64,000 nucleotides of DNA, taken from contig JARUPZ010000006.1 of NCBI GenBank assembly GCA_031213475.1, positions 4,150,045 through 4,214,044 on the forward strand, given 5' to 3'. The translations under genes were made by a program, and so were the position numbers. The first letter of the stretch is position 1. The number at the start of each line of letters is the position of its first letter. The notes beneath the pieces are model-generated. The model was given only the letters and a program-made list of their open reading frames with translations, had not been told where the DNA came from and made no database searches. Shown piece after piece: positions 1 to 64,000 of this stretch. The stretch comes from Nereocystis luetkeana. Taxonomy: Eukaryota; Sar; Phaeophyceae; Laminariales; Laminariaceae.

Positions 1-249
1 ACGACGAGTAGCATGGACATGTTCTACTTCCTAGTCGGCCTGGTGCCTTGCTACCCTGTCTGCCATCTCCTTCCTACTTTCGTACTCCGCGGTTTCCCTT
101 TGACTCCTCCTGTTCCCCCCCCTCTCCGCATTTACTTGGTCGGGTTTTCTTCCACTCCTCCTGTTACCCCCCCTCTCCCCATTCCCTAGGACACCACCGA
201 CGGGGGATGCTCGGGCCTCCGCAGCTGTGCCTCATCCTCGTGCCACCTC

Positions 250-870
250 ACCATGAACCGTTCGGCTGCTTCGTAGACAAGATGTTGTGGTCTGAGTCAG
301 CCTTAGCTGGGGCAAAATGCTGTGTGGAACGACTGTAACATCTTTTGTACTCTAGGTCGATGGGATTGACGGGGTAGGATGCAGTTGATCCGCTCACAGT
401 CCTTCGGGCTGGTGCCGCTGTGTGTATGCGATATCCCACCCTTGCGCGTGCTGAAAAACGTGTTGGTGAGAGCGAACTTGCAATTAATTGATAGCGAACG
501 GCAGGAGGAGTCGTTGGCCATTGTCGTGAACATCGCGTACATATGCTCCATGCACTCTACTTTCATCATCACCGCACCCTTCCATCCCCTGTCCAGTTCG
601 CGCGTTGACACCCCTCAGTACAAACATACACTCTTTCGTCGGAATCTTTTCCACCAAGTCCTCCACCTTCTGCCAGAAAATACGTTTCAGTACGGCGCCC
701 TTGGTGCAATCAGTTGGATGGAGTTTACGCACCACGAAATTAACTACCTTGCATCTATTAGCCAGCATAGACATATTGTGTATGCCGTTCGTCAATGAAG
801 TGGTGAGTGTACACAGACTCACAGCACAACGATTCCTTGGCAGCTAAACCTACTCCGTACAGCCATTGCC
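250..870 (-). pseudogene. Decayed non-LTR retrotransposon endonuclease (EEP fold) fragment
   Basis: Read on the minus strand, three frames in turn give pieces typical of the endonuclease-exonuclease-phosphatase domain of LINE elements: YGVGLAAKESLC near 860-830, FWQKVEDLVEKIPTKECMFVL with NARTG near 670-580, LTNTFFSTRKGGISHTHSGTS near 480-420, and APAKADSDHN near 320-285. The last matches the usual SDHN catalytic-histidine motif. At least two frameshifts separate the pieces and no reverse transcriptase follows within the window, so this is a dead, truncated copy. It has no link to the genes downstream. Confidence 0.72.
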
Positions 871-1379
871 TGGCAGCTATTCTTTCCTGAACGCGATACC
901 CATGGGGCGTCGTGCTGCCGGACCTCCTAGTTTCTTACAGGCATATATATGAAGTCACAGCCGAGTTGCCGTCCCTTCGCCAGTACGCGCCCGTCATGCC
1001 CGTACCCGTCATTCCCCTTACAGCCAGGGGGCGCACATTGTAGATCGCTACCGCCACATGTGCCTCCTTCTCTGTCTCTTACTACGGTCTCTGACGAGCC
1101 TCACGTGCTGCTTTCTTTGTCAGCCGACGTGAGCCTCGCCCCCTCCTCCTTTTTTTGTATACCAGGTACGAGTACGCGTCTGTATTTATGTACAGAAAGC
1201 AGCAGCAGCTGTGTAGTACGAGTGCGGGTATACTCGTGAAACAAAGCGGCCCGAATCTACAAAAAAAAATGAATTAACAAAGCACATTATTAACCGTTGC
1301 ATTTTGTTTAATGCGAAGAACACACACGACACACACCGCGCGCAGCTGGCAGGTGAGAGTGTGTCGAGGTATACAGCTT
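871..1379. other. Intergenic, no gene recognised
   Basis: Short ORFs are present but carry no recognisable domain. The stretch contains small CAG runs and a TACGAGTA motif near 1150. I see no gene here. Confidence 0.5.
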
Positions 1380-1495
1380 GGGAGGTGTGTGTGTGTGTTC
1401 TTCACATTAAACCGTTCTTTCTACCCGTCGACATCCAGCACAACCAGTGTCCGTGCCGATTCTTCAATCCTAGAAGAGAGGTGAGAGAGCAGTGG
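1380..1495 (+). repeat. Family E dispersed repeat, copy 1
   Basis: Shares GTCGACATCCAGCACAACCA and flanking text (TTCTTCACATTAAACCG, CGGTGCCGATTCTTCAATCC-like) with copies at 3938, 4325, 17078, 18737 and 45428. The family is about 130 bp. One frame reads a similar peptide in several copies ([19 protein letters not shown]), which I attribute to sequence conservation of a young repeat, not to a gene. Confidence 0.75.
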
Positions 1496-1629
1496 TTATC
1501 TGTGCTGGTAGTCGATATAAAAAGGTATCCACATCATTTAAGAATAATCGAGCACGGTGATTTGATGAGCACAATGAATGTTGTACAAATAGATGCTACG
1601 AGTACTACTACTGCTGCTGCTGTTTCTCC

Positions 1630-1735
1630 TATTACGGGAGACCATAGTTAATACCTGGTAGGACCTAAGGTAAACATAAGAGCCTATTTTTACTAACAAT
1701 ATTTAGTTCTGTTAACTATGGTCCCCCCCGTAATA
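1630..1735 (-). mobile_element. Family A TA-MITE, copy 1 (carries a TACCTGGTA insertion)
   Basis: Bounded by TA, with TTACGGGAGACCATAGTTAA at one end and the inverse ending CCCCCGTAA at the other. The core is in the reverse orientation (TTTTTACTAACAATATTTAG). Relative to other copies, TAATAGGACC reads TAATACCTGGTAGGACC at 1650-1666, an exact 7-bp gain at a TA. Confidence 0.85.
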
Positions 1736-3557
1736 GGACCTGTCCTTCTACAACTAACTGCCCACATACAGCACAGATCATATACCACTATACTATTGAT
1801 ACTATAATCCTATCAATACTACCACGACATACCAGGGTATACACTAATTAATAAAAATGATATCACACCCTGCCCAGCCTACTACTACTGATGTTGTTGT
1901 TGTTGTTGTTGTTCTCACATTAACTCTCTGACGAAGGAGTCCGTGGTCACACAAAGGTGCTGGAGCCCTAGGAAGATCCGAAAAACAAAAAAAAACGAAA
2001 ATTCGGCTGCCTCAAAATACACGAGACGGAAAAAGCGCACACAAGATAAAACCAATGTGCAAAACTGAACTAACATGGCCGCGGGTATATCCTCTCAACT
2101 ATAACATAGAGTACCCCCGTTCCCACCACTAACCAACTCGTGGCTGCTGACTACAGCGGATGCTGTCTGAAGTGCTGCCTGCACCGTACGAAACGCACGG
2201 TAGTCGTGAAAACGAAAGAGGAACACACCTGCCTGCTATCTGGAGTGCTGTCAGAGTGAAGACTCGCGGATATGCAGTGAAAAAAGGAGCAATCGAACCT
2301 TACTGCCACACGAATATCAACGATCGCCATCTCTTCCTGGACTGTCTGACACAAAAAGGTGCAGCACAGTTATGATACCACGTCCCTGATAATTGCGTAG
2401 GTTATTCCCCATGAAGGGTATACAACTCGTTAAACTACAAAAACCAGTGACGAGTACCGGTAGATACTATTCTGCCTCGTGAAAAACAAAACCAGGAAAA
2501 AACAAACTATGACTGCTTCTCTCGTGATGATAGTGTGCGCGCAAATCATGGGTCTCCATGCACCGTCTTCCTGCCGCTCTTCATGGCCGCATCATCGCCT
2601 TGGCCCAATCCACCCGCTCCTTTGCGCGTGCACTCGTTGCCATTCCCTTCCTCCAGTCGTTTCCCTTTCTCCGTCATCCTGAAAAACAAAATGCTCCTCG
2701 CACTTGCGGTTCTGATCTGGGAAATAAAAATTCTCGCGCAGGGGGAGGTCAATCCGTCTCTTCCCCGCACGTCGACGCTCAGTCTCCCTCCTCCCTCGTC
2801 GTCGAATCCAGCCTCCTACCGGCGCAATAGACTGTGCCGTAGTGTGGCCTGTGGTGGCGCCTGCCTCCGCGCATGGACACCCCGATTGAGCATTGCTGCT
2901 CTGCCGCAGCTGCCTAAAAAGACGCGCGAATCGTAGGTCTCCGTGCCTGACGCACCACGTACGACCCAACTCTACTGCCGCCTGAGCCTCGCGGCCACAG
3001 GCAGCAGCGAGAAGGTATCACTCCTTGAGGGTGAGTCCGGCCTTACACCCGCCAGAAAGACCTACCCCACTCGTTATTAGCCTGATAGGGCATGCCTCGC
3101 AGCATTCCTTGCCGAGGCAGGGAGGGGAACGGAAGTATATTTGTACACCCGACAACATCATACGAGGTACACATTCTTAGAATCTGTAAACTTTATTTTG
3201 ATATTCATATCATTTTGATATTATTATAGATAAACTATTCATACAATACTATATATATACCTGGCACTAGATAATATACTACTATTAATACTGCTTCTTC
3301 TGTAGACACTAACTTTTAATATTATACGTCATCAATCATCAGATCAGCGACGCTAACTACTATTATTTCGTTTTCGTCTCCCCGAATTCGGAAAATAAAT
3401 CAATATTAGAAACCTCTATTTCCAGTACGATTTGACTTCTAATAAAAAATATACCAGGTAGTATGTACAGATATACCATCCACGCATTTTCACACACACC
3501 CGTATTCTAACATGATGAGCCTATACTCCAGTTATATACCGGAGTCCCTGTATACAC
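1736..3557. other. Intergenic, no gene recognised
   Basis: No gene and no member of the main repeat families was recognised. The segment 2535-2990 is GC-richer and has overlapping ORFs on both strands without recognisable motifs. The 3180-3480 part is AT-rich. Confidence 0.45.
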
Positions 3558-3918
3558 CCTTTTTTTATTTTTTTTTATTTTTTTTATTTTTCATCCCATT
3601 CATTATCTTCGCACATCTTTTCTTGTCTCTCTCCTTCCAACTCGTAACTCAGATCCGGGGTCACATAGCAGGCTCTTCTCCCCCCTTCCCGCTACGGTAC
3701 GTGCCTTCATTTTTTATCGCGAGAAGATTTCAGCCTTTTCTTCCCTCGTCGACTCGCATCGAATTGTGCCTATACCCACGCTGCAAGGCGCTCTCAACAA
3801 TTGAATCCCTTTTTTTTATTTTTGCAAATAAAGTCAAAGTCCGACCCTCCTGGGGCTCGAACCCAGGACTCAAACAAGTAGAATTCGAGGTTAACCACTT
3901 GAACCACCGGGGCGACCG
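3558..3918 (-). mobile_element. Family C tRNA-derived SINE, copy 1
   Basis: On the minus strand this is a full-length SINE. The head GTCGCCCCGGTGGTTCAAGT carries an A-box-like segment, GGGTTCGAGCCC is a B box, and the body (GATTCAATTGTTGAGAGCGC, CTTCTCGCGATAAAAAATGA, GACCCCGGATCTGAG-like) ends in an A/T-rich tail at 3558-3590. A Pol III-transcribed tRNA-like head plus oligo(A) tail is the standard SINE architecture. Confidence 0.85.
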
Positions 3919-3937
3919 TGGGTCCTCGTAATTTGCA

Positions 3938-4072
3938 TTGTGATCACAGAAGGACTTGTACATCTCTTCTCGGGTTGAAGAATCGGCACGGACACTATAC
4001 TGGTTGTGCTGGATGTCGACGGGTAGATATACCGTTTTTTTAATGTGAAGAATATACACACATTCATTATTA
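3938..4072 (-). repeat. Family E dispersed repeat, copy 2
   Basis: Reverse-oriented copy with the shared block TGTGCTGGATGTCGACGGGT near 4007-4026. It directly abuts SINE copy C1 on one side and D1 on the other. Confidence 0.7.
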
Positions 4073-4073
4073 T

Positions 4074-4866: not shown

Positions 4867-5339
4867 GTTGGAGAACACACCTCCTATCATCGCAGTTTTT
4901 TACATACTCGTACATACGAGTACCTCTCACTCGTACGTCGTGACAAAAACGATGAAAAACTTAGATAATATGAAGAAACACCTCGCCTAATCTGTGTGCA
5001 CGTCGTACCGGCCGGCCCAGGTGCGATATGGGACCACCTGTGGTGGTCGTGGTGGTGTAGGCAGGTACCGAGCACACTGGCACAGGTCTCCAGGATGAGG
5101 GTCACAAGCACAGACAGACGTTGATTTAAGATATCATCATCTCAGACAGTAAATAAGATATAAAATACCGTAAAATGTGCAGAAGAACCGTTTCTCTCTA
5201 TCTCTGCTGTTTTACTTATTATTCGTAAAGAAAGAAAAAATAATAGTAAAAACATCAACTATGCTATGCGATGACCGCAGACTGCAGACGTCACGAAAAC
5301 GAAAAGCGCTAAAATAAAGCGGTCTATTTCGATTATTCA
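4867..5339. other. Intergenic, no gene recognised
   Basis: Nothing recognised apart from TACTCGTA/TACGAGTA near 4907-4922. AT-rich toward 5200. Confidence 0.4.
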
Positions 5340-5489: not shown

Positions 5490-6910
5490 GTGAGTACGTT
5501 GCCCTCGGTCTGTCTGTTGCTGTTGTCGTGGACTAAACGCTCCGTTACTGGCTTGTGCATTTGGAACTTTCGGGTTAACGCGAGATCGCTGCCGCTCCTG
5601 CTCCTGCTGCTGCTGGTGCCGCTTCTGCTGCTGATTGATGCTGATGCTGCGTGCTCCTGCGCTCTCGGCGTGTTCTAAACCACGCGACCATTTGCATACG
5701 TAACGATGTGGCTTGCACCAACCGCTTCTGCGCCAACATCTCCAGAATTCCGATACCAGTAGTTGACCTCTAAGGCGGCTTTTGCCACCAGTCGCGCAGT
5801 TGGAAGCGCGCCGGGCCACCCCAAGAGCGGGCACACAGAGAGCGCAGCGAAAAGCAAAATGACGTGCATACCTCTTGTGCGTTCGCGTTCGGTCTGCTGC
5901 ATGTTCACGACTAGAAAAAAGAATGTGTGTACTCGTCTGAAGTTTCATCTTTCTCCATGAACGAAGTAACTCCTGACCGCCGGTAGAGGCTGTCGTCGTA
6001 CCCAGGGAACTGGATTGGCTCGTGCGTTGCCCGGCCCGGCGAGGGCCATTCCGGCTTTGAGTTGGACCCCTGTTCCTGCTTGTGCGTTGGAGACTTGATG
6101 TATGACTTCTGGTGAAAGATCCTTCTTCGGCATCATCATTTTTTTGTTGTTTTCGCGTTTCGTCCCTCTAGAATGCCTCAACAAGCCTTGCTGACTATTC
6201 GGTGACGAGCTCGCCTGTCAATTAACCATGCCAACCAGGCGCTTGAAACGCTCTCTTCGCCAGGTCGTGCTTGGCTAGGTACTGCTGCTGCTGCTGCTGC
6301 TGTTGCGAGTAGCTTTTCACTGCCAAACGTTGGTCGCTATCTCACGCATGCACCTCTAGAAGTCGGGGAGCATCCGAGCGATTCTTCCCAAAAAAAAATT
6401 GCCCCACAGCAGTACGAGTATCGGTATGTATGTGAGTGAGTGTCTTCTCTAGGAATAGTATTACATGCAGTGGGCCCAAATCATACCCATACGTACATGT
6501 CATACGAGGTAATATTAATATGAATACCTGTTACCTGGTATACAATAAGCTGTACTGGTGCTGTGTGAAACCTGCTGACTGTTGTTACTCTTTCAGCGCC
6601 CCTGATCGACGAGAGGTCGGTGGGGTGGGGTAGGAAAGGAAGGAGGAACGGCTACACGTTTAGGCTTACGATAAAACAGGAGCTCGTCGCTTCATGCGAG
6701 CCCCGAACGTACCCAGCGGACGTGGCGATGTTCAGCGCTGCAGCCTCAGCAGCAAGCAGCAGCGCCAGCAGTCAGTAGCAAGACAACATGAATCAACCTC
6801 CCTCTCCCCCCTCCCCTCCCCACGTGCGTTCCCCCAAAAAAACTGAACCACAAAAAATCGCACGCAACACCCCACACGCACAACGCACGATCAGGTTTAT
6901 TTTCGCACCC
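5490..6910 (+). other. Proposed 5'UTR intron of glutamine synthetase
   Basis: Begins GTGAGT and ends CACCCAG. It contains CTG-rich stretches (5590-5640, 6283-6304). The opposite strand has a 169-residue glutamine-rich ORF (5439-5948) that I regard as a by-product of these triplet runs. Confidence 0.35.
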
Positions 6911-7103: not shown

Positions 7104-10100
7104 GTGAGTTTTTTTTTCCCCATCGTATTCATACAACCTTTACCTGTATGTCCGATATTATAAGGAGCGATCGCCGATCCGTATCCATACAAAAATAGTC
7201 CCTATATTTTCGAGCATGGGTGGTACGGCAATGTTTGGTGCTTTGTTTTCATGAAGAACAACTTCCAGGTATATTTTGTTCTTTTTTGTTCTTTTTGGTT
7301 CCACATTCTCTCTTTTTCCGCATCAATCAACAATTTCATTTTTTCATCGTTTTTTGCTTGCTTTTTGTTCACGGATCTCCTTTGTAAAACTTGTCGATCA
7401 TTTTGCATTTTCAGGAGTATGACGTACTAAGGAATCACTTCCTTTGGGCACGGTTCTTACACCCGGTTGATATGATCTGTATTCACCTGTGCGCTATCGT
7501 ACTATTAATACGTACCTGCCCCTATACGCACGTACGTACGTACGTGCGTGTGTTCTTCGTTCAGTGTAGTAAGCGGCCCACAGCAGCAGCAGTATCCAGC
7601 GAACAGCATTACCGGAAATATATTCAATCGATCGGGAGATATATACCAGGGACGTACCAGGTACCTGGTATTGGTTTTACTCTATTATTATTACAGCACG
7701 CATCCCATTCTCAAATATATAACCATGAAGTGTCCGGTACCCGATACAACCACGTACAGGCCCATCAAATACGACATCCTGATGAGGCTGAGACCATGAC
7801 TTGATAAAACAAGCAGTTCCGGAGCCGTTATACTGAAGTTAGTGTAGGTGCACGAGCAAGAAACAAGCCCGTCTACGTTTAATTATTTAGGTACAGCATC
7901 CTGTCAGAAATTGATGCTCTCATTAATGGAACGAGCAGCTCAGCGGCAAGCGCTTCTTGTTTGTTCGTAGGCATATCAGGCGTATGCGCTATTTTTCGCA
8001 ACAGCAGCAGTATCTTGCTGGTAGGTGTCAATCGTGATGTGCAAGGTTTTTCCCCGTGAGAGGCGTTCGGACTTGGGTTGACGGGGTAACGCAAAGGTAA
8101 AATCGGGCGATGTTACGTGCGTCTTGTTGCACCCGAAAAAACGAAAGGCCCACCACCAGTTACCATTTCAAAGTCTGTACAGCCCAAAAAATTAAGGGCA
8201 TGACGACATGCGCAAGAAAATTGCCGTATACTATAAATAAGTATACTGTACATTGCGCTACCAGCTGCGTAGATGTGCAATACATGATTGCTGCTGTACT
8301 GGTGTATACCAGGTAGCAAATGCCCTATTCATAGACTACTGGCGCTGTATTCATGTTTTTGTGAACCCAGGGGCGCACGAGAAAAAGCCAAACGACACGA
8401 CACTCCTAAAAAGCTCTTGTAATGAAAACAAAACTGCTGTTAACCCCTTTAGAAGCGCAGTCCCATTGTGGGGACAAACCACTCAAATTCCAAGTAGTTC
8501 GTCCCCAAAACGGGGGACTGCGGTCCCAATAGGGTTAACTCGTTCATGGTACGTGCGTGGTAGGGTGGAGTTTCTGTTCGAATTTGTTATTGTACGAGTG
8601 TAATACTTGTACCTGGTGTTTGAATCCAGGTACGGTAGGTGGTACCCCTGGTATGTTGGAACGCTGCTTTGTTTTGTTCTGTTTGGTTTTTCGACGTTTT
8701 TTGCTTGGTTTCATCACGTATCCTCCCCCTATTTTGGTCTCGAAAAATAGTGATTGGTCCACTATTCTTTGGACTTTCATGTGCGTGTTGGGGTGTCATT
8801 TTTTTAGCGGTTTGGGGGGGCAGATGAGCGACTGAATAACCGACAAGTACTACTGCTGCTGCTGTAGCGCGGTCTCTGCGAGCGTCCATCTACGTGAGTA
8901 AAGAAGCCGCCATGATGCGCGGATATAATATTGACAGCTCTTTGTGTTGCTCTTCGGACAAGCGCCCTGTCCCGGCAGGCCCGACTGCCTTGTGTGGCCT
9001 ACTGGCCTACTGCTGTTGTGCTGTAAACTGCACTTGCTTCGGGCGGTGTTTCTCCCTTTTAGAACCGCAGTCCCGTTTTGGGGACACACCACTCAAATTT
9101 CATGTAGATTACCCCCAAAACGGGACAGCGGTTCTTAAAGGGCTAACCCCTCAGGGGCTTCGAGAACGCGAACCACAACAAGGATACATGTATTCGGTGT
9201 TGAGACCAATTATCAAGCGCCCATGGAGGAGCTACGAGAGGCGCCAGCGGTACCGACTGAATGATGTATAGCGCCCGTGCCGTGCGACTCTCTTCGTTGT
9301 CACTGGAACCTACTACTACAGAGTGTTATCACGGGGAACATAGCAGGTAAGACCATACCACTATAATGTTTAGTAAAATTATCGAAACATGTAAGTTTTT
9401 GTGTGCACCGTAGGTCCTCTTTTTAAAATGGTCCCCCGTAATAGCACTATTACGGGGGACCATAGTTAACAGGACCTATGGTACACACAAAAACCTATAT
9501 GTTTAACCATTTTTACTAACAATATTTGGTCCTGTTAACTATGCCCCCCCCGTAATACCAGGTACAGCAGCAGTAGTTTCAGTAGCAGTTTGTATCATCC
9601 CCCAAATCACCAAAAAATCACAAAAATAGAGTGACGGCTGCTGCAACCGTCACCTTCTGTCGTCAATTTTCCCCGCCTGAAGTCCCGGAAGGGTCGACGT
9701 GCCCCCCTCGACCACCAACCAGACAGACAGACATATACTAAATATACTAAATATACTAAATATACTAAATATACTAAATATACTAAATATACTAGAACTG
9801 TCATTATTAATAATATCACAGCAGTAGCGGGAAGGGGGGAGAAGAGCCTGCTACGTGTCCCCGGATCTAAGTTACGAGTCGGAAGGAGAGAGAGAAGAAG
9901 ATGTGCGAAGATAATGAATGGGATGAGAAAAAAAAAAAAAAAAAAAAAAAAAAAGTAGCGCTTGTTCGCCGGGTAATAATATGTTCGTTTTTTTCTACCA
10001 ATACTGCTTATATAGTGCTGTCCAGCACCAGATACTACTACGGGTATACCAGGTACCTATTAATAGCATGATCACGTACCTGGTATATACCTGGTAGGCC

Positions 10101-13100
10101 GTAATGTGTTGATGTGTTTGAAGATGTACTACCTGGTATTAATATCAATATATACCAGGTATATATGTATATACGATATCGTACGTATCGTATATTTTTT
10201 TTTTACCAGATACCATTGGTACCAGGTAACACCTTATTAATATTAATAGTTGAATTTGTAGACGGCGTAACCATTGCTATCGTACAGAAAGCCTCCGCCT
10301 GTGATGGGTTCAGCGCACAAACATGCCTTGCACCTTGGAGCTCACGCTGGCTTTTCACGCACATGTACACACTATTGTGAATACATGTATACACGAGGTA
10401 TATGCTTCACCGGTATAACGTATTTCGTTTCCTTGCATGAACGGGGTGATTGAGGCTTTTGCTCGGCGTGGATGTTTTGTCTATCCTTCCACTGCAGTGA
10501 CTTGGCTCCGTCCATATTCGGCAAGAGCACGCACGAGCAATAATAGTCGGGGACACGTCATATTATCCCTGGTTTCCTCACGGCTGTCTTGCTGCTGCTG
10601 TGCTGTGTGTGACTGTCACATGGAGGCATGACCACAAGGATCACCCGGGACATGATGTATCACAATAGCCCGTCGGCACGATCGAGCGGGACAAGCTGCA
10701 GGCTGTAGTCGTGTTTGTGGCCCTTTTTGTGCCTCAGCGACAGGTTCTTCTTGTGGCGGAAATACTAAATAATCCCGTTCTCTCGCGAAAACCAAGAGAA
10801 AATTCCATCCTTTTCCCCAACACCCCAGCTGTGCCATGAAAAAAAGTCGGGGATCGGGGATCAACAACCGCACTTCGTTCGAGGCTATACATATCTGATA
10901 CAGCAAGGGGGACGAAGGGATGATAAAATAAGGTCCGACCCGTGGCTTCGACGTGACCATTTTCAGGCTTTAGAGCCACCAGGTGTTACTGAGCTAAAGC
11001 GGTACGGATGTTTACGTGCATGATACGGGTTGTACGTATGTGTGCGTTCTTTACACTATTAATAGGCAGCACTGCCAACTGCCACAAATGCTCCGGAATA
11101 CCAGCAGATTACTTTCTACCTGGTGCGCGTTATTTCCAGTCTTTTATAGTCCCGTTTTTGGGTTATAGTCCCGTTTTTGGGGATAAACCACTCAAGTTCC
11201 GAGTAATCTGTCCCAAAAACGGGACTGTAGACCTAAAGGGATCGATAGCTACCAGAGGCCAGGTATTAAAAACTACCAGGTAACAGCTAGTAGTGATGAC
11301 AGCAGTTGCGAACGCGACTACGGTGTGGTAGACTGCTGTCATCCTTGCGGACGGTGCGCTTGGCGTGCGGATTTTCCCCACCTTATGTAGTACGCAGGAT
11401 GTGCTGACTACTGATACTGCCGTGTGTTTTGTCCCGTTCCCGGAAGTCCGAATGCGCGAGTTGGCCAAAATCGATGGAAATGGACGAAAAACAGTGGGAG
11501 TGCTGATTCTAACGAATGAACCCTGTGTCCGATAAAAAGCAAGGCCCGTGTGAGTATTATATATTATGTGCTATTAATTGTTCCGGGAGGGAGAAGGGAG
11601 GGCACATGTGACAAGGGTTTCTTGGCCAAAAGGCGGCTGGCGGTAAAATCTCCCATAAAAACATTCGTACGTGACCGACCGTACAGGAGTTGAGCTGGAA
11701 TTAAGAAATGACAATATGGTGATGCAAAAAAGTTACCCGGTGCTACTGGGTGCTGCAATTGAAAGCCGGCCAAAGGATCATGGCCTATACACGGGCCTGG
11801 TACTGTTATGTACCCTGGTATCATACCTGGTAGTTTTTTACGGAGGACCATTGTAAATAGGACCAAATATTGTTAGTAGAAATAGCGAAATATATAGGTT
11901 TCTGTGTGTACCGCAGGTCCTATTTAATACTGTCTCCCGTATTAGGATGTACGTGGTAGATATGTGCCGTTCCCTCCGGACGTTCTGCAGCGGAGGTTGG
12001 CTGCTGTTGTTGTTTTTCGTGTCTTATCAGACTGCCTTAACCGTACTTGGTGTGTTACGCAAGATAGCACACCCCGTCGGATGGGCTCCCAAACCGGCGT
12101 TTCTCCAAAGCGTGCCCTGAGGGGGGCACACAAAGCGTAAATGGTGGCAATGGAAGGATGCGTCGTCGACATAATTCCATGTAGGCCTGGCCTCCTCGCT
12201 CGACGTTTGCGCTCTCCCCGCTGCCGATAAACGCCCACAGCAATTTCCTCGATGGGGTGTGGTAGCCTACCCCCCGGGTGATACGGTATAGCACGCACGG
12301 CCTATCGCACGGGTGACAAGACATCACACGACCTTCTCTGTTTCCCCGTAGGGGGTTCCTGCAAGCCCACAGCTGATCGACCTTGATTCAGTCAAAAGTA
12401 ATAGTTCCACACTATTTCTATGTATATTTTGTCCCCCGAAAAGCAGGCGCAGTTCTAGAAAGGTCTTAAGCTATTATACATGCATGTCTGTCTATGTGGA
12501 CAGCACCACTGCTGTGCGGACATTTCCTAACGTCGGAGTATTGTATCATATGCGCATTAAAAAAAAGGATCATCGTATGCTGTATCGTTTTCAATTCGTT
12601 CTTGCGCCACCACCCCCATAGGCACGTTCCGGAGGGGAACCTTGTACCTGGTATAGACTAACTACCTGGTACAATATGAAGTAGGGCAGAAGCCAAAATC
12701 GGGTACACCTGTTCCATTTGAGCCCAAAACAGTTATATATACCGAAACCGAGTAAAAATCTAACGCCCCAAGCGGTGTTTTCGGCCATGAGAAATCACCA
12801 GTTTTTTTTGCATCTGAACATCGAGCGCATGGCCTCCAAAATATGTACCAGGTATTGTTTTTACTCTTCAGGGTATCGGTACCACGGACTCCACCTGGAC
12901 CTACATAAGGTCACCAGGCTTTGTTTGTTTCGCCACAGTTGGCACGCCAAAAACATTTATTCTGGCGCCCCCCCCCCCCCTCCCCGTGGCCAGCTTCGAA
13001 GCCTCTCGACCATCCTCGCAGTACCGGCTGCTCGGCACGAAATTACTTTGCCGTACTGTGCCAAACCTGAGACCAGTTGGACGCGAGGTCGGGCAGACAT

Positions 13101-14026
13101 TAGTAGTAATAGTACCCCAAGCGGTCGCCCCGGTGGTTCAAGTGGTTAACCTCGAATTCTACTTGTTTGAGTCCTGGGTTCGAGCCCTAGGAGGGTCGGA
13201 CTTTCACTTTATTTGCTAAAATAAAAAAAGGGATTCAATTGTTGAGAGCGCCTTGCAGCGTGGGTAGGCACAATTCGATGCGAGTCGACGAGGGAAGAAA
13301 AAGGCTGAAATCTTCTCGCGATAAAAATGAAGGCACGTACCGTAGCGGGAAGGGGGGAGAAGAGCCTGCTATGTGACCCCGGATCTGAGTTACGAGTTGG
13401 AAGGAGAGAGAGAAGAAGATGTGCGAAGATAATGAATGGGATGGAAAAAAAAAAAAAAAAAAAAAAAAGAAGAGAAGGAATCAGCGTACGTATGCATGCC
13501 TCGATACGTACGTACGTAGGTAGAGATTTGATACACAAGAATTACAAGCGAGGGATCGAAGACGCATACGCGGAGAAAACTTTTGGCCTCTCAGATTGGC
13601 TGGAAATCAGGTGAAAACAGTTGAAAGCTACGAAACAAAGTAGACAAAAGCCAGGGTTGTACCTTGTACCAGGTATTGTATAACAGGTTTTCATATTAAT
13701 ATTACCTCGTATGACATGTACGTATGGGTATGATGGTACGTGGCTACACGTATACGTGGCCAGTTTCAAGCCAAAAACAGGTACGATCTGAGGCTGGCCA
13801 AAAAAAAAAAAAGGGATTCAATTGTTGAGAGCGCCTTGCAGCGTGGGTAGGCACAATTCGATGCGAGTCGACGAGGGAAGATAAGGCTGAACTCTTCTCG
13901 CGATAAAAAATGAAGGCACGTACCGTAGCGGGAAGGGGGAAGAAGAGCCTGCTATGTGACCCCGGATCTGAGTTACGAGTTGGAAGGAGAGAGAGAAGAA
14001 GATGGGCGAAGATAATAAATGGGATG

Positions 14027-49309: not shown

Positions 49310-49355
<46 letters not shown>

Positions 49356-57000: not shown

Positions 57001-59854
57001 GGCCAGTATATTTTCCCCAGTACTTTTCATCTTACGTGCGCCCAAGAAAGAAACACGCCATTTTACAGTACGGAGACCCAGTAAATGCATTTCGGGGGAA
57101 GAAGAGCAGAGAGGAGAAGACAGCACGAGTATACTGCTGCAATTCAGTGTAAAAACGCTGCTGACAGAGTCAGCCAGTGCCCACCCCTAAGCGCTACCGC
57201 ATTAATTACATATACGGACATACTGACAACTACGACGAAACGTTGTACCGAACTCGAAAAAAAACATGAAAGAAAACGCAACGTATTGTTGGGTGCGATT
57301 TCCTTATTTATCCCCCCTCCCTATTACGGGGGACCATAGTTAATAGGACCTGTGGTGTACATAAAAACCTATATATTTGACCATTTTTACCAACAATATT
57401 TGGTCCTATTAACTATGGTCCCCCGTAATAATATATATATATATAGGTTGGGTTGGTGTCGGTTGGCAACGACACTGTAAAACATGCCGCTCTATAGAAC
57501 CAGCGTACCGTTTTTTTTGTTGTTTTTTGGGGTGGTTACCACGGCTAGGGATCGAGTAGTTTTTTTTTTTTTTTTTTTTGGGTGGTTACCACGGCTAGCG
57601 ATCGAGTAGATCATTTGTGCGAGTTGAAGGACCTTCACTCCGCACAAATGGGAACGATCGTATCAAGTAGTGTTCAAGGGAAGGCACCCAAGGGACAGTA
57701 ACATAGTACTCCCACTGCTGTCTCTGGAAATGCCTACACCGGAAATTAAATCAACTCATTGAAGCTGTCATCCCTATGCAAGTCCGCCCCACAAGCGATT
57801 CTTAGTAGGATGCAGCTCATTCTTCACGCGACTCGCCAGAGACACCTCACGGGTGCAAGCAATGTCTGCGCCGTCGGTGAAAACCCGACATGCTCCGTCC
57901 CGGCATTGTAGGGATATGAGGGTCTATGCTCATACGACTACGGCCATGCATGAGATCCAGTACATCTCTCCTATCGAGTGCACCCCCCCCCCCCGCCACA
58001 ACAACAGGTACAATACCGTTTTAGGCCTACCACCAAGAACATTGACAATTCAAAAAAATTATTGACAAAAAAATGTGGCGGTTCTGGTCAGTCATTTCCG
58101 GGAACCTGCCATTAATACGCACCAGGTACGAACTGTTGAGACCCATTCGGGTGAAGGTAGTTGACCGACAAACGGAGGGCATTTTGGTGTGGTCAGACGT
58201 CTACGAGCAGCGGGGAGCGAGCGCCCGGCACGTACACGAGTGGATTAGGGTCGTGCCGCAACCGTATATGCACCCCGTGTCGTGCGATTCCTTTTGTATC
58301 AACCATCGCAACTCGGACATCAACCACTGCAGCGTCCGGCCCCCTCTCTCAAAAATCACGCAGCACCCGTCGTCGCTGCTGCAATCGTCACCTTCTATCG
58401 ACAATTTAAATTCACCCTTTTTTAGGACCGCAGTCCCGTTTTGGGGACAACCTATACACGGAATTGGAGTGCTTTGTACCCGAAACGGGACCGCGGTTCT
58501 AAAAAGGGCCGAAGTAAACTAAATGCTTCAAGCTCGAAGAGTGTGCCCGAAGCACGAGAGGAACACAAACATTTATGTGTATATACTATTAGTATATATA
58601 TATTATATACATATACTCGACATCTCCAGCGCTCGAGCATGCTGAATCAGAAAACGAAAAAAGAGGGAACGAAACACAAAACAAACGGGACCAGCTTCCA
58701 GGTACCTGGTATAGAAATATCTCACGGATTATCACGTTTGAACATCATCTCGGTTTCACCGCCCGACGCTGATTGCTGAATCAGAAAGGAAAAAAAAACA
58801 ACAACAACAAAGGGGAAAAATAGTTTCGAAAACGAATTCACAACCGGCGTAAATCGCCGCAAAATAAGCGTCACCCATCAAAACATGCCAAAAATATATA
58901 TATATCAAAAATCAGCAAAAACGCAAAAACGCAGAGCATCATAAAATAAAAAACAGAGGCGCCCTTACCCTCACTTCTTGCTATAGAAAACTCCGCGAAG
59001 CTCAAAATTCCACTCAGCATCAGCTGGAAAATACTCTGGCGCTGGTTTACATGCAGTGAAAAGCTTATCTGCAACACCAGCAACCGTTTCGACGCCAAGT
59101 TTGTACGAGTCTCTCTCACTGTTTGGCCACTACGCCGTCCACGAGAGCTCCTCTTTTTGAAGAACGGTGTAGGGTACATTCCGCCCCTATACAGCACATC
59201 GATCTGATACGCCTGCATGCTACGAGAGCAGCGACACGGCAACAGCAGTACACGATAAAGCGGTACGTGTTGCGCAACGCAATCTTGACTGAGTAAAAAA
59301 AAAAACAGAAGCGCGCTTCCGTGTGAAGCTACAACGAACAACCACAGCAAGGCGGCCGTGGTACGACGAAGCCTCGGCGAGAAGGAGTACCGCTGGAATG
59401 TGACGGGCGGTAGTGGAAAGAGCGCCGCAGCGGCACAACGCCCTCCTTGTCGAGCCGAAATAGCGCTCAGACGCGTGGAAGATAACAACGACAACCATAA
59501 AAAACAAACAGCAGCCACAGCACAAAAACCACAATGAACAACCACATCATCGACAGTAGCCTCTGTCGTAATCACAGGCATGTCAAACACAATGAACAGC
59601 ACATCATAGGATGACCGACAGGAACCACAGCACCATCAACAACAACAAACAGCAGGATACCTCGGGGACGATCATAGGTATGTGATGTCACGGGAGGGCG
59701 GCAGCTTACGTGAGAGCCAGGTCGGCGTCAGCGATCGCGAGACCGAACTGCTCGAGCTTGACATAGCAGAAGGCGCGGTTGCTGAGGTAGATCGCGGTGG
59801 GGTGCAGGTCGATCGCCTGGGAGTACTTCGCCACCGCTTGGTAGATCTTGCTCC
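40150..59854 (-). CDS. Serine/threonine protein phosphatase 5 (PP5), ten exons found, N-terminus missing
   Basis: Sense order: 59854-59710, 56110-56017, 53901-53757, 52619-52508, 49565-49496, 49173-49034, 46040-45911, 44342-44004, 42626-42558, 40284-40150. All phases match, giving 458 residues and a stop. PP5 is a PPP-family metallophosphatase whose N-terminal TPR domain binds Hsp90 and autoinhibits the catalytic domain. Visible are TPR helices ([38 protein letters not shown]), the PP5 linker, and the metal and catalytic motifs GDTHG, GDFVDRG (split by an intron), RGNHES, THGG and RSHEV. The C-terminus is [22 protein letters not shown]5 is usually 480-500 residues, so a first exon of 30-50 residues is missing. 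The gene converges with GSII. Confidence 0.94.
40400..40465 (-). repeat. Family G, copy 3
   Basis: CATTTGACCATTGACCACAC and GAGACGGAGCATCG, next to poly(G). Confidence 0.6.
40530..40590 (-). repeat. Family G, copy 4
   Basis: CCATTGACCACGTATCCCTT, TCGAGACGGAGCATCG, again immediately after poly(G). Confidence 0.6.
41227..41339 (+). mobile_element. Family A, copy 9
   Basis: TAATACGGGGGACCATAGCA to ATGGCCCCCCGCAATA, forward core, TA on both sides. Confidence 0.85.
41746..41854 (+). mobile_element. Family A, copy 10
   Basis: TATTACGGGAGACCACAGTA / TACTGTGGTCCCCCGTAA: both arms carry the same C/G change (CACAGT/ACTGTG). Confidence 0.87.
41864..41952. mobile_element. Family B, copy 20, degenerate
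   Basis: CTCGTTTTGGGGGTGGGCAG, ACTCACTCAGAATTC, ACGGGACCACAG, GTTCTAAAA. Confidence 0.5.
42000..42162. repeat. (TACA)n/(CAGA)n microsatellite
   Basis: A long TACATACA array interspersed with CAGACAGA. It generates YIHTYIHT and CMYVCMYV pseudo-ORFs. Confidence 0.95.
42558..42626 (-). CDS. PP5 penultimate exon
   Basis: [20 protein letters not shown] followed by CDQ: the conserved SAPNYCD segment of the PPP fold. Acceptor GCATCAG|GAG, donor CAG|GTCAGC. Poly(C) lies on the coding strand both upstream of the acceptor and shortly after the donor. Confidence 0.94.
42829..42926. mobile_element. Family B, copy 21, with co-varying arms
   Basis: Flanked by TCAA on both sides in the same orientation, which indicates a target duplication. 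Arms are AGTGGTGCAGTCC and GGACTGCACCACT instead of AGAACCGCAGTCC and GGACTGCGGTTCT, so the same substitutions occur in both arms. Confidence 0.88.
43275..43372 (-). repeat. Family F fragment, copy 2
   Basis: AAGGCCGTAGTCGTATGACC, CCCTACAATGCCCGGACGGA. Confidence 0.7.
43882..43978 (+). repeat. Family G, copy 5
   Basis: AAGGAACGGTGCTCCGTCTC, GGGATCCGTGGTCACTGGTC, ending in a C-rich run. Confidence 0.65.
44004..44342 (-). CDS. PP5 catalytic exon with THGG and RSHEV motifs
   Basis: Longest exon, 113 codons: [73 protein letters not shown]. The two histidines (THGG, RSHEV) are metal ligands in the PPP family. Acceptor GAGCAG|GTT, donor GAG|GTGAGG. Confidence 0.95.
44630..44900. repeat. AT and (AAAAC)n microsatellites
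   Basis: (AT)n at 44630-44683; CTAC repeats near 44800; AAAACAAAAC units at 44850-44900. Confidence 0.9.
45318..45427 (+). mobile_element. Family A, copy 11
   Basis: TACGGGGGGCCATAGTAAGT to CGCCCGTAATT, forward core. Confidence 0.8.
45428..45572 (-). repeat. Family E, copy 6
   Basis: CTCTGTGGCGTAGTTTTGTG to GTTGGATGTCGACGGGTAGA, directly adjoining A11. Confidence 0.75.
45669..45764. mobile_element. Family B, copy 22
   Basis: TCTTAGGACTGCAGTCCCGT with right arm CCGAAACGGGACTGCATTCC. Confidence 0.82.
45911..46040 (-). CDS. PP5 exon with RGNHES motif
   Basis: Completes Arg of GDFVDR and continues [41 protein letters not shown]. Asn and His of GNHE are catalytic and metal-binding in the family. 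Acceptor CTACGCAG|G, donor GAG|GTGGGG, a weaker donor than the others. Confidence 0.94.
46135..46264. repeat. Two long poly(G) tracts flanking a family F fragment
   Basis: G(32) at 46135-46166 and a G-rich run at 46236-46264. Between them is a minus-oriented F terminus (TACTCGATAGGAGATATGTA, CATGGCCGTAGTCGTATGAC). Confidence 0.85.
47086..47165. repeat. (GAGCC)n pentanucleotide microsatellite
   Basis: About 15 units of GAGCC, ending in degenerate AAGCC units. Confidence 0.95.
47199..47440. repeat. Tandem GC palindromes followed by a 95-bp duplicated unit
   Basis: CTGACCCGCCCCGCCCGCGG plus GTCAGGTCA occurs twice in tandem at 47199-47258. Then two copies of a unit beginning ACAAGCCGT, with AGCAAGTGG, AAGGCTCAAC and GATGCAGGGTGT/TCATGCAGGGTGT blocks. 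Confidence 0.75.
47815..47883. repeat. (GGGA)n microsatellite
   Basis: About 17 units of GGGA/GGAG. Confidence 0.95.
47909..48027 (-). mobile_element. Family A, copy 12
   Basis: TATTACGTGGGATCATAGTG to ATGGTCCCCCGTAATA with a CA microsatellite expanded inside the core. Confidence 0.82.
48083..48188 (+). mobile_element. Family A, copy 13
   Basis: TACGGGGAACGATGGTAAAT, core GGACCGAATATTACTAGTAA; the right end has decayed to CCCCCCCGGGAT. Confidence 0.75.
48413..49033 (-). repeat. About 32-bp minisatellite built from the PP5 splice-donor sequence
   Basis: Starts at the donor of the GDFVDR exon. The sense strand reads GTTGACAG|GTCAGTCTTG at the true junction. The array then repeats units like CAGTCTTGACAGGTTGGTGC and CACACC, about 19 in all. 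Several (near 48460 and 48430) restore TTGACAGGTCAGT exactly. Confidence 0.88.
49034..49173 (-). CDS. PP5 exon with GDTHG and GDFVDR motifs
   Basis: [46 protein letters not shown] plus AG of Arg. The Asp and His of GDTHG and the Asp of GDFVD bind the two catalytic metals. Acceptor CGTGCAG|ATC, donor AG|GTCAGT. Confidence 0.95.
49174..49495 (-). other. PP5 intron (322 bp), shortest in the window, with CTG tract
   Basis: Contains (CAG/CTG)n at 49312-49353 and little else. Confidence 0.85.
49496..49565 (-). CDS. PP5 exon, start of catalytic domain
   Basis: Completes Lys, then [20 protein letters not shown] and RLK, matching the helix that precedes the phosphatase core in PP5. Acceptor CGTCCAG|G, donor AAG|GTAAGG. 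Confidence 0.92.
50131..50981 (+). mobile_element. Family H non-autonomous DNA transposon, copy 2
   Basis: Ends GACCTATGCCAATGG / CCATTGGCATAGGTC, flanked by TTA on both sides. The 3-bp duplication would suit a PIF/Harbinger-type element, but with only two copies (the other flanked TAA/TAC) this is tentative. Shares CGACGATCGACGCTCGATCT and GGGCGAGAGCTTGCCGGCGG-type blocks with copy 1. Confidence 0.8.
51447..51562 (-). mobile_element. Family A, copy 14 (carries a TACCAGGTA insertion)
   Basis: TATTACGGGGGGGCATAGTT, then TAATACCAGGTAGGACC where uninterrupted copies read TAATAGGACC. Right end is CTATGGTCCCCCGTAGTA. Confidence 0.87.
51768..52180 (+). repeat. Family F, copy 4 (carries a TATTAATA insertion)
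   Basis: GTGTGAGGTAAATAACCTTT through GATCGAGTACATATCTCCTA to C(18). At 51981 reads CTTAGTATTAATAGGATGCA where copies at 57781 and 63747 read CTTAGTAGGATGCA. Confidence 0.85.
52268..52395 (+). repeat. Family F fragment, copy 5
   Basis: GGTGCAAGCAATGCCTGCCT, GAAAACCCAACGTGCTCCGT, GGTCATACGACTACGGCCAT. Confidence 0.75.
52508..52619 (-). CDS. PP5 linker exon
   Basis: [36 protein letters not shown]: the segment joining TPR and phosphatase domains. Acceptor TTCCAG|TG, donor AA|GTGAGT. Confidence 0.93.
52620..53756 (-). other. PP5 intron (1.1 kb) with exon-end duplications
   Basis: Its sense-proximal 400 bases are tandem copies of the preceding exon's 3' end. The rest is CA-rich low complexity (52690-53060) and a poly(G) run near 53088. 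Confidence 0.8.
53366..53812 (-). repeat. Tandem array of about 115-bp units copying the 3' end of a PP5 exon
   Basis: Four units on the plus strand start at about 53366, 53472, 53600 and 53723, each with CTCYAAGTSTGCGATGAAAA and TCTATYTCYTCGGC-like blocks. The last unit overlaps the true exon end ([13 protein letters not shown] on the sense strand). The other three repeat AEEIDP-like coding text plus the donor region and early intron, with decayed donors (GTGCGAGG, GGGCGAGG). Confidence 0.85.
53757..53901 (-). CDS. PP5 exon between TPR and catalytic domain
   Basis: [48 protein letters not shown]. Two donors give the same phase: ATAT|GTGAGA (chosen, exon end 53757) and CCCGG|GTGAAA (end 53766), the latter giving EEIDPV instead of EEIDPGEIL. 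Acceptor is GCATGCAG|GTG. Confidence 0.88.
54330..54675. repeat. About 55-60-bp minisatellite
   Basis: Six to seven units of TTTTTTTCATGTGGACCTCA-AGACACCCCCCATACCACAT type. Confidence 0.88.
54941..55032. mobile_element. Family B, copy 23
   Basis: AAGACTGCAGCCCCATTTCG / CAAAACGGGACTGCGGTTCT. Confidence 0.75.
55169..55368. mobile_element. Family B, copy 24, split by family A
   Basis: Left part is 55169-55220 (CCCCTTGTTAGGACCGCAGT...CCAGTCAAAC), right part 55330-55368 (TATTTTGTCCCCAGACAGAG). A15 sits between, duplicating TA. Confidence 0.85.
55221..55329 (+). mobile_element. Family A, copy 15, inserted in family B
   Basis: TATTACGGGGGACCATAGTT to ATGGTCCTCCGTAATA. The host is a recognisable B element, so the TA duplication and element ends can be read directly. 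Confidence 0.92.
56017..56110 (-). CDS. PP5 TPR exon 2
   Basis: [31 protein letters not shown]: third TPR repeat with the conserved [12 protein letters not shown] segment. Acceptor AAAACAG|G, donor AAG|GTAATG. The acceptor is preceded on the sense strand by G runs, an unusual polypurine context. Confidence 0.94.
56506..56614 (+). mobile_element. Family A, copy 16
   Basis: ATTACGGGGGACCATAGGTA to ATGGCCCCCCGTACTA, forward core. Confidence 0.85.
57322..57430 (-). mobile_element. Family A, copy 17, near-perfect ends
   Basis: TATTACGGGGGACCATAGTT / AACTATGGTCCCCCGTAATA. The 20-base ends are exact inverted complements. Confidence 0.92.
57435..57985 (+). repeat. Family F, long copy 6
   Basis: Begins GGTTGGGTTGGTGTCGGTTG, CAACGACACTGTAAAACATG, has an internal T-rich tract with GGGTGGTTACCACGGCTAG twice, and ends in the usual GACTACGGCCATGCATGAGA and poly(C). 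Confidence 0.82.
58411..58510. mobile_element. Family B, copy 25
   Basis: TTTTTAGGACCGCAGTCCCG / CGGGACCGCGGTTCTAAAAA. Confidence 0.82.
59710..59854 (-). CDS. PP5 TPR exon 1 (first exon found)
   Basis: [49 protein letters not shown]. Acceptor CCCCCAG|GG needs one base from an upstream exon, proving at least one more 5' exon. Donor is CAC|GTAAGC, leaving two bases completed by G of the next exon (Thr). Confidence 0.93.
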
Positions 59855-61693: not shown

Positions 61694-61926
61694 CTGTATA
61701 CAAGTATATATATATATAACCAGCGGGGGTCCCTCGATAACGCTCGTACCCGATATAATGCCATTCATTTAGACTTGGCACAGTCGGGACTGCTGTCTAC
61801 AACACATGAGTCTACGTGTGTACAGAGTTGGTGTTGGACATCGAACGCGAGAGGTCGGCGTATCGACCCACCACTTTTTGTCCCTCGAGTCCCAGACAGG
61901 CGGGGGCGCACTCATTCGTCGCCTGC

Positions 61927-62023
61927 TCAACCCTTTTAGCACCGCAGTCCGTTTTGGGGACAAACTACTCAAGATTTGAGTGGTTTGTCCCCACATAAGG
62001 GACTGCAGTCCTAAAAGGGTCAA
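61927..62023. mobile_element. Family B, copy 27
   Basis: TCAA-CCCTTTTAGCACCGCAG ... GACTGCAGTCCTAAAAGGG-TCAA. Same-orientation TCAA on both sides supports a 4-bp target duplication. Confidence 0.87.
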
Positions 62024-62078
62024 GTCATTTGATCACTGATCACGCATCCCTTTTGAGGCAAAGGGGGGGGGGAGGGAT
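62018..62078 (-). repeat. Family G, copy 6, abutting poly(G)
   Basis: GTCATTTGATCACTGATCAC, GCATCCCTTTTGAGGC, then G(10). Confidence 0.55.
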
Positions 62079-63421
62079 ATGCCACAACCATACAAAAAAA
62101 AATGGGAAAAAAAAAACAATTTCAGTTCATTTCTTGAAAAAAACAAAAAAACCCAACCCGCTAGGTGGCGAGTGTAGCTCCATACACCCCTGCGAGAATA
62201 CGTTAAAAAAAAAAATTGGGACGCAATTTCGATTTTCGGTATCGACGGCACCGAGAAAAACAAAACTCGATACCGTACATACGATTTCCACATTTCATAC
62301 CACCAAAATTTCGTTTAACGCAAATTATATTCGTAATAAAAAGCAACAACAACAACAACAACAACAACAAAAACATTATATGTGAGATCGAGTATTTGGT
62401 AGAAACTCAATTTTTGCAAGACGTGTGAGTGATACGATACTTCGATCGCGCGTACTGCATATAATACGGGTTTTCCATGGCCTCATCGTATGCGATCCAA
62501 GTACCACACACTGCTGCTTCTGCTGCTCCTTGCGAAAACGAGTTTCGACGAAATCCTCTTACCTCACAGGTACCAATACTGCGCTCGTACAAGACACCTC
62601 ATAATTTTTATACTTTGAATACACAGCAGTAACACCAGGTACAACGTACGGTATAAACTTCGTACCGGCCGTAAAAAAAAACACGGCAACACGAGAAAAA
62701 CACGCTCATATGCGATAAATCGAAAGTTCGGCGTAACGGTACGTAGAAACTTTCAACTTTTGACAAAACGATATCCAACTCTACCGTAAAGCGAGCAAGC
62801 GTGGTTTCAAGCCTGTTTTGAGCGGAACATAAAACAAAAACTAGAACAAAAATAGACCCAAGCTTGACTCTTGTCTTTTTTTTTGTAACGCAATTATTTC
62901 GCTTCGCGCACAAGGCGGTGCAAGCCTGTGTTGTGTGGCATTGAAGCAATGCTTGCTATAAACACCTGCTACCTGTGGGAGCGGGAGCGAGTCTGTTGTT
63001 TCGGCGTGAAAGCTTCAAGTTCAGGATGCTAAAATTAGTTTCTTTGTAGAAGTGGTGGTACTACAACGAATACATCGCTCTTCTTGTGCATTTGGTTCAA
63101 GATGCAAAAAACATTATACTCCGTGAAAAAAACTGAGTGTACTTACGTGGTACCAGGTATGTATACACCGCTCGCTGCCCGGGAATTGGCTGTGAGAGAG
63201 GTATCGAATATGCTTCAGCTGGACTCGTTTTCCTGCTGTTGCTGCTGCTACTGTTGTTGTCTCGTTTTCCTGCTGCTGTTCTTGTTGCTGTTGTTTTAAC
63301 ATGAACTCGTCGACATCATCCACAGTAGTCCGCGACCACAGCACAGACTCGAGGAAAAAACAAAAACTCAGGAGGCCAGAAACTGTCAGGAAACAGAGTA
63401 TCCCCCCCCCCCCCCTATTTT

Positions 63422-63955
63422 ATATAGGTTGGGTTGGCGTCGGTTGGCAACGACACTGTAAAACATGCCGCTCACTACGTGAGCTAGACAACCAGGGTAC
63501 CGTTTTTTTTTGTTTTTTTTTTTGGCGGTCGCCCACAGCTGGTTGTCGAGTTAGATCACTTGTGTGAGGTAAATAACCTTTACTCCGCACAAGCGGAAAA
63601 ATCGTATCACGTAGTGTTCAAGGTAAGGCACCCAAGAGGCAGTTACATAGTGCTCCCATTGCTGTCTCTGGAAATGCCTACACCGGAAATTAAATCAACT
63701 CATTGAAGCGGTCGTCAATATGCAAGTCCGCCTCAAAAGCGGTTCTTAGTAGGATGCAGCTCACCCTTCATGCGACTCGCCGGACACCTCACGGCGCTTC
63801 GCGCTTGGTGCAAGCAATGTCTGCCTGGTCGGTGAAAACCCGACATGCTCCGTCCCGGCATTTGTAGGGATGCGAGGGTCTATGGTCATACGACTACGGC
63901 CATGCATGAGATCGAGTACATCTCTCCTATCGAGTACACCCCCCCCCCCCCCTCG
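63422..63955 (+). repeat. Family F, long copy 7
   Basis: Same order of blocks as copy 6, starting ATAGGTTGGGTTGGCGTCGG and ending in C(16). Has the empty CTTAGTAGGATGCA site at about 63745. Confidence 0.83.
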
Positions 63956-64000
63956 GCAGGGCAAACCTGCCTTGGTTTTTCTTTGGACGGACACCAAACT

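Follow-up and report, generated by a model that had tools for sequence, protein, structure and literature searches.

Probable heritable excision scars of a TA-target transposon, TA-CCWGG-TA, in the genome of Nereocystis luetkeana

What has scattered a single 9-mer, TACCWGGTA, through a 64-kb stretch of the genome of the brown alga Nereocystis luetkeana (assembly GCA_031213475.1, contig JARUPZ010000006.1, positions 4,150,045 to 4,214,044; hereafter, the window)? The word occurs 45 times in the window (21 TACCAGGTA and 24 TACCTGGTA), against a mean of 0.43 and a maximum of 3 in 100 dinucleotide shuffles, which rules out a chance origin. The swarm is therefore real, and the count agrees with an earlier reading made from the letters alone (the sequence-only reading), which had reported at least 40 copies where about 0.5 were expected. 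The C/G-centred form, TACCSGGTA, occurs 3 times. Single units predominate, and their flanks are diverse. Because two copies (19116 and 19430) lie inside a perfect 314-bp tandem duplication at 18877-19504 and represent one event, the window holds at most 44 independent copies. CCWGG is also a methylation motif; this explanation was dismissed since the enrichment is in the TA-bounded form, which accounts for 45 of the 152 CCWGG in the window.

The swarm extends beyond the window. The surrounding assembly comprises 465 Mb in 1,987 contigs, and we sampled twenty 10-kb pieces from it, one each from contigs C1-C20 at the same coordinate (one piece, L014, has 2,500 N). These 197.5 kb contained 77 copies of TACCWGGTA, with 0 to 9 per piece, confirming the genome-wide enrichment for which the sequence-only reading had asked; by extrapolation, the genome would hold about 180,000. 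Two copies no more than 20 nt apart were found at 9,824 places genome-wide, compared with 2 for the reversed pattern. For a reverse-transcriptase ORF in one sampled locus (L021), five of the 120 matches listed carry an organism name; four belong to Ectocarpus and one to a bacterial metagenome-assembled genome, in keeping with a brown-algal source.

Comparison of repeat copies demonstrated that the word is gained as a 7-bp unit at a TA. When the 7 bp were removed in silico, the flanks aligned without gaps to empty siblings at window positions 1652 and 51469 and at L028:7055, L017:9580 and L011:5265; for most of the 146 sites tested, no sibling of this kind exists in the 288 kb compared (a set that includes locus L004 but not L005 and L006, which overlap it). 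An unbiased list of indels, drawn up after removing low-complexity contexts, poorly matched flanks and alignments shorter than 60 bp, holds 341 distinct insertions, 3-40 bp in length, that separate repeat copies of this set. Of the 28 that measure 7 bp, 5 match TACCWGG exactly and lie at a TA, and 2 more are degenerate forms; among 43 insertions of 6 bp, 4 convert TA to TATTAATA. Thus the target TA is duplicated, as in Tc1/mariner transposition, with TA becoming TA-CCWGG-TA. An exact gain of 7 bp had been claimed for 1652, 14564 and 51469; both the sibling alignments and the indel list bear this out for 1652 and 51469, while 14564 has short empty siblings only (matches of 16-27 bp at 15389-15404, 50130-50147 and 50960-50986). 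Both of the chains described as sharing a TA are genuine, the first starting at 7655 and not at 7651.

A 103-bp miniature inverted-repeat transposable element (MITE) in the window provides a natural excision assay at one TA, with the arms of its family serving as the yardstick for an empty site. The exact empty arm, CATAGTTAATAGGACC, occurs 23,206 times genome-wide (11,714 and 11,492 by strand; reversed control, 0). Another 1,028 arms (514 per strand; reversed control, 8 and 6) carry 3-30 bp between TA and GGACC, so that 4.2% of 24,234 arms bear an insert. Among 100 inserts listed of the 1,028, 51 are exactly 7 bp long: 35 CCTGG, 12 CCAGG and 4 single variants. The 47 exact TACCWGG place this +7 product in about 2% of MITE arms. 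Minor products among the same 100 are CCCTGG (7), CCGG (3), and one each of CCAGGG, CCCCTGG, CCAG, CTGG and CCA, together with 5 multi-unit chains and one direct join, TACCAGGACC; a triple-unit chain is also present among the insert-bearing arms. Other classes are CTCGGAG (4, clustered on one contig), CTCCGGAG (2), CTCCGAG (1), TTAA (2) and CTGCTG (1). The rest consist of seven rearrangements, 20-25 bp long, in which MITE sequence is repeated, and of short odd inserts. A search for TACCAG-filled arms returned 129; the 100 listed comprise 50 CCAGG-TA, 13 CCAG-TA, 4 CCAGGG-TA, 19 with a second unit, 4 others, and 10 direct joins into the MITE flank in which the TA is lost, a product that end-joining can give.

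We examined the independence of these events at 20 places chosen from the insert listing, which contain 21 inserted copies (17 CCTGG and 4 CCAGG). Their outer flanks are unrelated, with a mean pairwise identity of 25% and a maximum of 42.5% over 40 bases; MITE copies mostly lie at a distance of 0.05-0.2 from their nearest neighbour, and extra scars are found at other TAs in several of them. The unrelated flanks and the further scars indicate that many of the events at the MITE site were independent.

The minor products reveal which ends were joined. CCAGG and CCTGG are strand readings of one word, so W by itself carries no information, and the central A/T choice that the sequence-only reading took as footprint evidence is none on its own. 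Among TA-bounded words, CCAG/CTGG occurs 28 times against 8.6 expected, whereas CCTG/CAGG occurs 12 times against 11.7; CCAGGG/CCCTGG occurs 12 times against 0.75 expected and CCTGGG/CCCAGG not at all; CCATGG occurs at 4 sites against 0.26 expected and CCTAGG at none. Genome-wide, TACCNNGGTA is found at 28,845 places (reversed control, 4,918). Among the first 100 listed, all on C1, CCAGGG/CCCTGG outnumbers CCTGGG/CCCAGG by 34 to 4, with the 34 falling to 27 if one array of ~528-bp units is counted once, and CCATGG outnumbers CCTAGG by 13 to 1. Because CCAG-derived words are enriched and CCTG-derived words are not, the ends begin with CCAG, and the lost element probably began 5'-TA-CCAGG. The scar spectrum fits joins between putative CCAG(G) and CTGG ends lying between two TAs; joining of partial CCAGG and CCTGG ends would yield the enriched CCAG-type words. 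At C1:1304145-1308362, eight copies of TACCAGGGTA lie mostly ~528 bp apart, apparently a scar amplified in a tandem array.

Isolated scars (n=91; scars within 40 bp of another excluded) occupy a palindromic context, WANNNTR-TA-YANNNTW. Relative to ordinary TA, the folded flanks avoid T at -1 (χ2 36) and deviate for T at -2 (21), A at -6 (61) and A/T at -7 (54), compared with a flank χ2 of at most 15.2 for control TANNNNNTA words. In the unfolded table, the flank preference of TACCAGGTA is present on both sides. Such a palindromic target context is as expected of transposase integration. The scars also look decayed. In 264 kb, one-mismatch neighbours of the scar word exceed expectation by ~95, compared with 122 exact copies (CCAGG and CCTGG counted as one), which, if mutation accounts for the neighbours, corresponds to a per-site divergence of roughly 8%. 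In that case the scars would be inherited and not somatic noise.

We conclude, with a probability of about 0.8, that the 9-mers are heritable scars left by the excision of a cut-and-paste transposon with a TA target, Tc1/mariner-like, both ends of which read 5'-CCAGG inward. The process resembles Tc1/mariner excision, and the element is a candidate member of that superfamily. A transposase would integrate it at a TA whose surroundings are weakly palindromic and duplicate the TA (both duplication and context are observed), and excision would leave end nucleotides at the donor site. In the version we favour, excision would produce 5-nt 3' overhangs, a length we infer from the main product; CCAGG would face CCTGG and anneal through CC/GG with a central A:A mismatch, whose repair would fix either CCAGG or CCTGG. 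Imprecise end-joining may have generated the other observed products (CCAGGG, CCCTGG, CCATGG, CCGG, CCAG, CTGG, CCA and the joins lacking a TA). Each hop would leave one scar and move the element uncopied, without gap repair, so that few elements could produce many scars over a long time; under such conservative hopping, intact copies would stay rare or die out. The excision-footprint origin put forward in the sequence-only reading thus gains support from the range of products at one MITE site and from the palindromic target context. Of its predicted element with TA-CC(A/T)GG termini, no full-length copy was seen in the 288 kb or at the 100 filled MITE sites listed of 129; the minor products resolve the start of the ends to CCAG, not CCTG. 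Overall, that interpretation is partly supported.

Several observations weigh against our conclusion. No inverted-repeat element of the form TACCWGG...CCWGGTA or TACCAG...CTGGTA was found in the 288 kb, where the pairs are at chance level or are overlapping scars, and no intact CCAGG element was found among the 100 listed of the 129 TACCAG-filled MITE arms. With 30 candidates scored, the genome gave no match to Pfam DDE_3. Six matches to DDE_1 (four distinct places, one of them repeated in L032) were read in the DNA, and the sole element with ends found there has different ones (CGCGACA). The dominant core is 5 nt, not the 2-3 nt of a Tc1/mariner footprint. The 7-nt class of minor products is undiscriminating (CCAGGGG/CCCCTGG 3, CCTGGGG/CCCCAGG 2), and among the first 100 TACCNNGGTA listed, CCTCGG/CCGAGG (16) and CCCGGG (14, partly clustered) are unexplained by CCAGG ends; the rest of that hundred are CCCCGG/CCGGGG (9), CCTTGG/CCAAGG (5), CCGTGG (2) and CCGCGG (2). 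Flanks of TACWGTA and TACSGTA also deviate from ordinary TA (largest χ2 62 at -1 and 28 at -5). When the 21 inserted MITE copies were compared with 11 empty ones, the nearest neighbour was also inserted in 71%, and some scar-bearing copies may share descent from one scarred copy. Finally, CCTGG exceeds CCAGG by 35:12 at the oriented MITE site (two-sided binomial p 0.001), and CCCTGG exceeds CCAGGG by 7:1; these biases count against the model because symmetric ends do not predict them. The 35:12 bias may have come from shared descent or from context-dependent repair.

Further searches bear on the missing element. None of the 100 listed TACCAG junctions continues into shared element sequence, and the handful that extend past CCAGGTA diverge from one another by eye. 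Half-sites, TACCWGG followed by something other than TA, gave 145 rows in 294 kb (some repeated through the overlapping L004-L006) with no recurring continuation by eye, which argues against an abundant MITE with CCWGG ends in those 294 kb. Pfam DDE_1, of the pogo type, has 28 matches in the genome. One lies within a 4.3-kb TA-flanked element (L031:17-4330) bounded by the inverted repeats CGCGACAKCACTTAAG, and an identical copy is found in L032, on a small contig that is perhaps a haplotig. This CGCGACA element, being flanked by TA, indicates that TA-inserting elements exist in the genome. At L033, L034 and L035, which hold four more of the matches, no inverted repeat beginning CCAGG occurs in the stretches read. 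L034 has a long inverted-repeat structure at 288-4056 and, at 2282-2710 and 5086-5514, a pair of DDE_1 matches with equal scores that lie on opposite strands, 2.8 kb apart.

Among other explanations, the closest keeps a TA-target element but gives it a shorter stagger of 3 or 4 nt, the 5-nt product arising through partial fill-in and loss. Tc1/mariner staggers of 2-3 nt are described in PMC2170065 and PMC7827188, and the products CCATGG (CCA+TGG), CCAG and CCA do occur; a CCA overhang, however, should make CCATGG common, and it was found at only 4 sites against 122 of the 5-nt product. We therefore consider a shorter stagger doubtful, although it is the strongest of the competitors. A domesticated transposase that clears nearly all insertions in a programmed way, as with the internal eliminated sequences (IES) of ciliates, and leaves the scars behind would explain why scars far outnumber elements, with no intact copy in either the 100 listed filled sites or the 288 kb. 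Against it, the scars look decayed and inherited, as the excess of one-mismatch neighbours attests, and we regard it as improbable.

Two explanations dispense with a transposon. A functional palindrome or conserved binding site kept by selection might be suspected from the exact palindromic 9-mer and its high density. It is contradicted by the gain of a 7-bp unit at a TA, both between repeat copies and in the MITE arms, and it does not accommodate the chained units, the length variants (CCAG, CCAGGG, CCGG) or a preference lying 6-7 bp outside the motif; we hold it to be very improbable. Slippage of a (TACCWGG)n tandem seeded by chance, which the chains at 7655 and 18225 and one triple might suggest, seems to us the least probable of all. 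The copies are mostly solitary units in diverse flanking sequence, and the equal CC and GG slippage that it predicts is contradicted by the excess of CCAGGG/CCCTGG over CCTGGG/CCCAGG, both among the TA-bounded words and among the 100 listed. Excision scars of a CCAGG-ended element thus remain the preferred explanation.

Tc1/mariner footprints read TA-CWG-TA, and the flank preference found here resembles the AYATATRT target consensus; members with a 4-nt stagger exist. According to PMC7827188, end-joining after excision of Sleeping Beauty, a Tc1/mariner element, leaves a TA duplication around a few nucleotides identical to those of the donor overhang. The scars described here are similar in having a TA duplication around a short core, but differ in the length of the core (5 nt, CCWGG, rather than 3), in being many and heritable where those are laboratory excisions, and in that no intact element was seen. 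Stowaway and Osmar5 scars in grasses, according to PMC1925063, contain variable end pieces between TA duplications, with repeated events at one TA. Ours likewise vary and recur at one TA, and probably derive from both ends; theirs, unlike ours, are 1-4 bp fragments of terminal inverted repeats (TIRs) from elements with CTCC ends, whereas here the ends are probably CCAGG and one 5-nt product dominates. Ectocarpus, also a brown alga, has 17 Mariner-Tc1 families whose copies, numbering almost 12,000, are for the most part non-autonomous (PMC12477816); the words "excision" and "MITE" do not occur in the available text of that account, and no footprint description was seen there. Other systems were set aside: PIF/Harbinger, with its 3-bp target duplication, because the duplicated target here is TA and the third base is not invariant; piggyBac, with its TTAA target and seamless excision, because here the element enters at TA and leaves a scar behind; and precise ciliate IES removal, which leaves a single TA, because two TAs and 5 nt remain. 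A literature search, with most subscription papers outside its coverage, returned no genome-wide footprint swarm in titles and abstract starts; nothing was found that combined "excision footprints", "mariner" and "brown algae", and the matches listed for TACCAGGTA include nothing on transposon footprints.

Other TA-bounded words accompany the CCWGG swarm. A second swarm of micro-insertions, TA to TATTAATA, has 72 sites in 264 kb against ~1.7 expected (for example, window 10235-10248, L015:4568 and L021:6282) and prefers TAC-TA-GTA (χ2 91, 46 and 41), a context that points to a second family. TA-CTCSGAG-TA and TA-CTCCGGAG-TA occur at the same MITE TA (C2:1545935, C2:8628596, C3:1739699 and C3:3616376) and would fit ends beginning CTCC. 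The TA-TTAA-TA, TA-CTCSGAG-TA and TA-CWG-TA words suggest that several such elements behaved likewise. On C1, 33 of 35 insert-bearing MITE arms listed lie beyond 15.2 Mb, compared with 100 listed empty arms spread over 0-15.3 Mb, where that list ends; chromosome regions may differ in how densely they are scarred.

The scars of the window are collected in Table 1. Ten of the 43 open reading frames (ORFs) listed for the window were compared with Pfam, giving one match, to Metallophos (calcineurin-like phosphoesterase), at 48937-49401 on the minus strand; this ORF carries no TACCWGGTA, and its minus-strand neighbours may encode a PP5-type phosphatase. At 45 per 64 kb, only one or two scars would be expected by chance in a few kb of exon, so the absence from all 17 coding exons claimed in the sequence-only reading would say little.

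Table 1. TACCWGGTA scars and the reference MITE in the window (+, CCAGG on the + strand; -, CCAGG on the - strand; scars are based on a motif scan unless stated)
Feature	Position	Strand	Basis
TACCAGGTA scar	1160..1168	+	
TACCTGGTA scar in MITE copy, siblings lack exactly 7 bp	1652..1660	-	scan, sibling alignment, indel list
TACCAGGTA scar	3452..3460	+	
TACCTGGTA scar	6532..6540	-	
two chained scars, common TA, TACCAGGTACCTGGTA	7655..7670	.	
TACCAGGTA scar	8307..8315	+	
TACCAGGTA scar	9556..9564	+	
TACCAGGTA scar	10047..10055	+	
TACCTGGTA scar	10077..10085	-	
TACCTGGTA scar	10088..10096	-	
TACCTGGTA scar	10130..10138	-	
TACCAGGTA scar	10153..10161	+	
TACCAGGTA scar	10220..10228	+	
TACCAGGTA scar	11274..11282	+	
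TACCTGGTA scar	11824..11832	-	
TACCTGGTA scar	12645..12653	-	
TACCTGGTA scar	12663..12671	-	
TACCAGGTA scar	12846..12854	+	
TACCAGGTA scar	13667..13675	+	
TACCTGGTA scar, short empty siblings only	14564..14572	-	
TACCAGGTA scar	18206..18214	+	
two chained scars, common TA, TACCTGGTACCTGGTA	18225..18240	-	
TACCAGGTA scar, copied by 314-bp tandem duplication	19116..19124	+	
second copy of scar 19116	19430..19438	+	
TACCTGGTA scar in AT repeat	20722..20730	-	
TACCTGGTA scar in MITE copy, 11 bp longer than siblings there	23373..23381	-	indel list
TACCTGGTA scar	23575..23583	-	
TACCAGGTA scar	27976..27984	+	
TACCTGGTA scar	27987..27995	-	
TACCTGGTA scar	28084..28092	-	
TACCTGGTA scar	31799..31807	-	
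TACCAGGTA scar	32011..32019	+	
TACCTGGTA scar	32070..32078	-	
TACCTGGTA scar	32967..32975	-	
TACCTGGTA scar	35055..35063	-	
TACCTGGTA scar	40483..40491	-	
TACCAGGTA scar	40807..40815	+	
TACCAGGTA scar	46564..46572	+	
TACCTGGTA scar	48036..48044	-	
TACCAGGTA scar	49915..49923	+	
TACCAGGTA scar in MITE copy, siblings lack exactly 7 bp	51469..51477	+	scan, sibling alignment, indel list
103-bp MITE including flanking TAs, TIR CGGGGGACCATAGTTAATAGGAC	57325..57427	.	
TACCTGGTA scar	58703..58711	-	
TACCAGGTA scar	63151..63159	+	

More tentatively, and at less than even odds, we speculate that the ~180,000 scars belong to one family with an unusually long 5-nt stagger of which practically no element is left, nearly every insertion having been removed and end-joined; the cause would be either long conservative hopping of few copies or a domesticated transposase clearing insertions. 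If so, the scar set would be a near-complete odometer of past jumps, recording target preference and repair spectrum and serving as a clock. As a rule, footprints have been investigated one locus at a time or with reporter assays (as in PMC1925063). Here, the scars form an abundant class of short repeats, and the target preference, the lost terminal bases and the end-joining spectrum can be read from one assembly. If several families of TA elements left swarms, as TA-TTAA-TA and TA-CTCSGAG-TA suggest, footprints would contribute a sizeable number of 5-10 bp indels, and the history of transposition would be countable even once the elements are gone.

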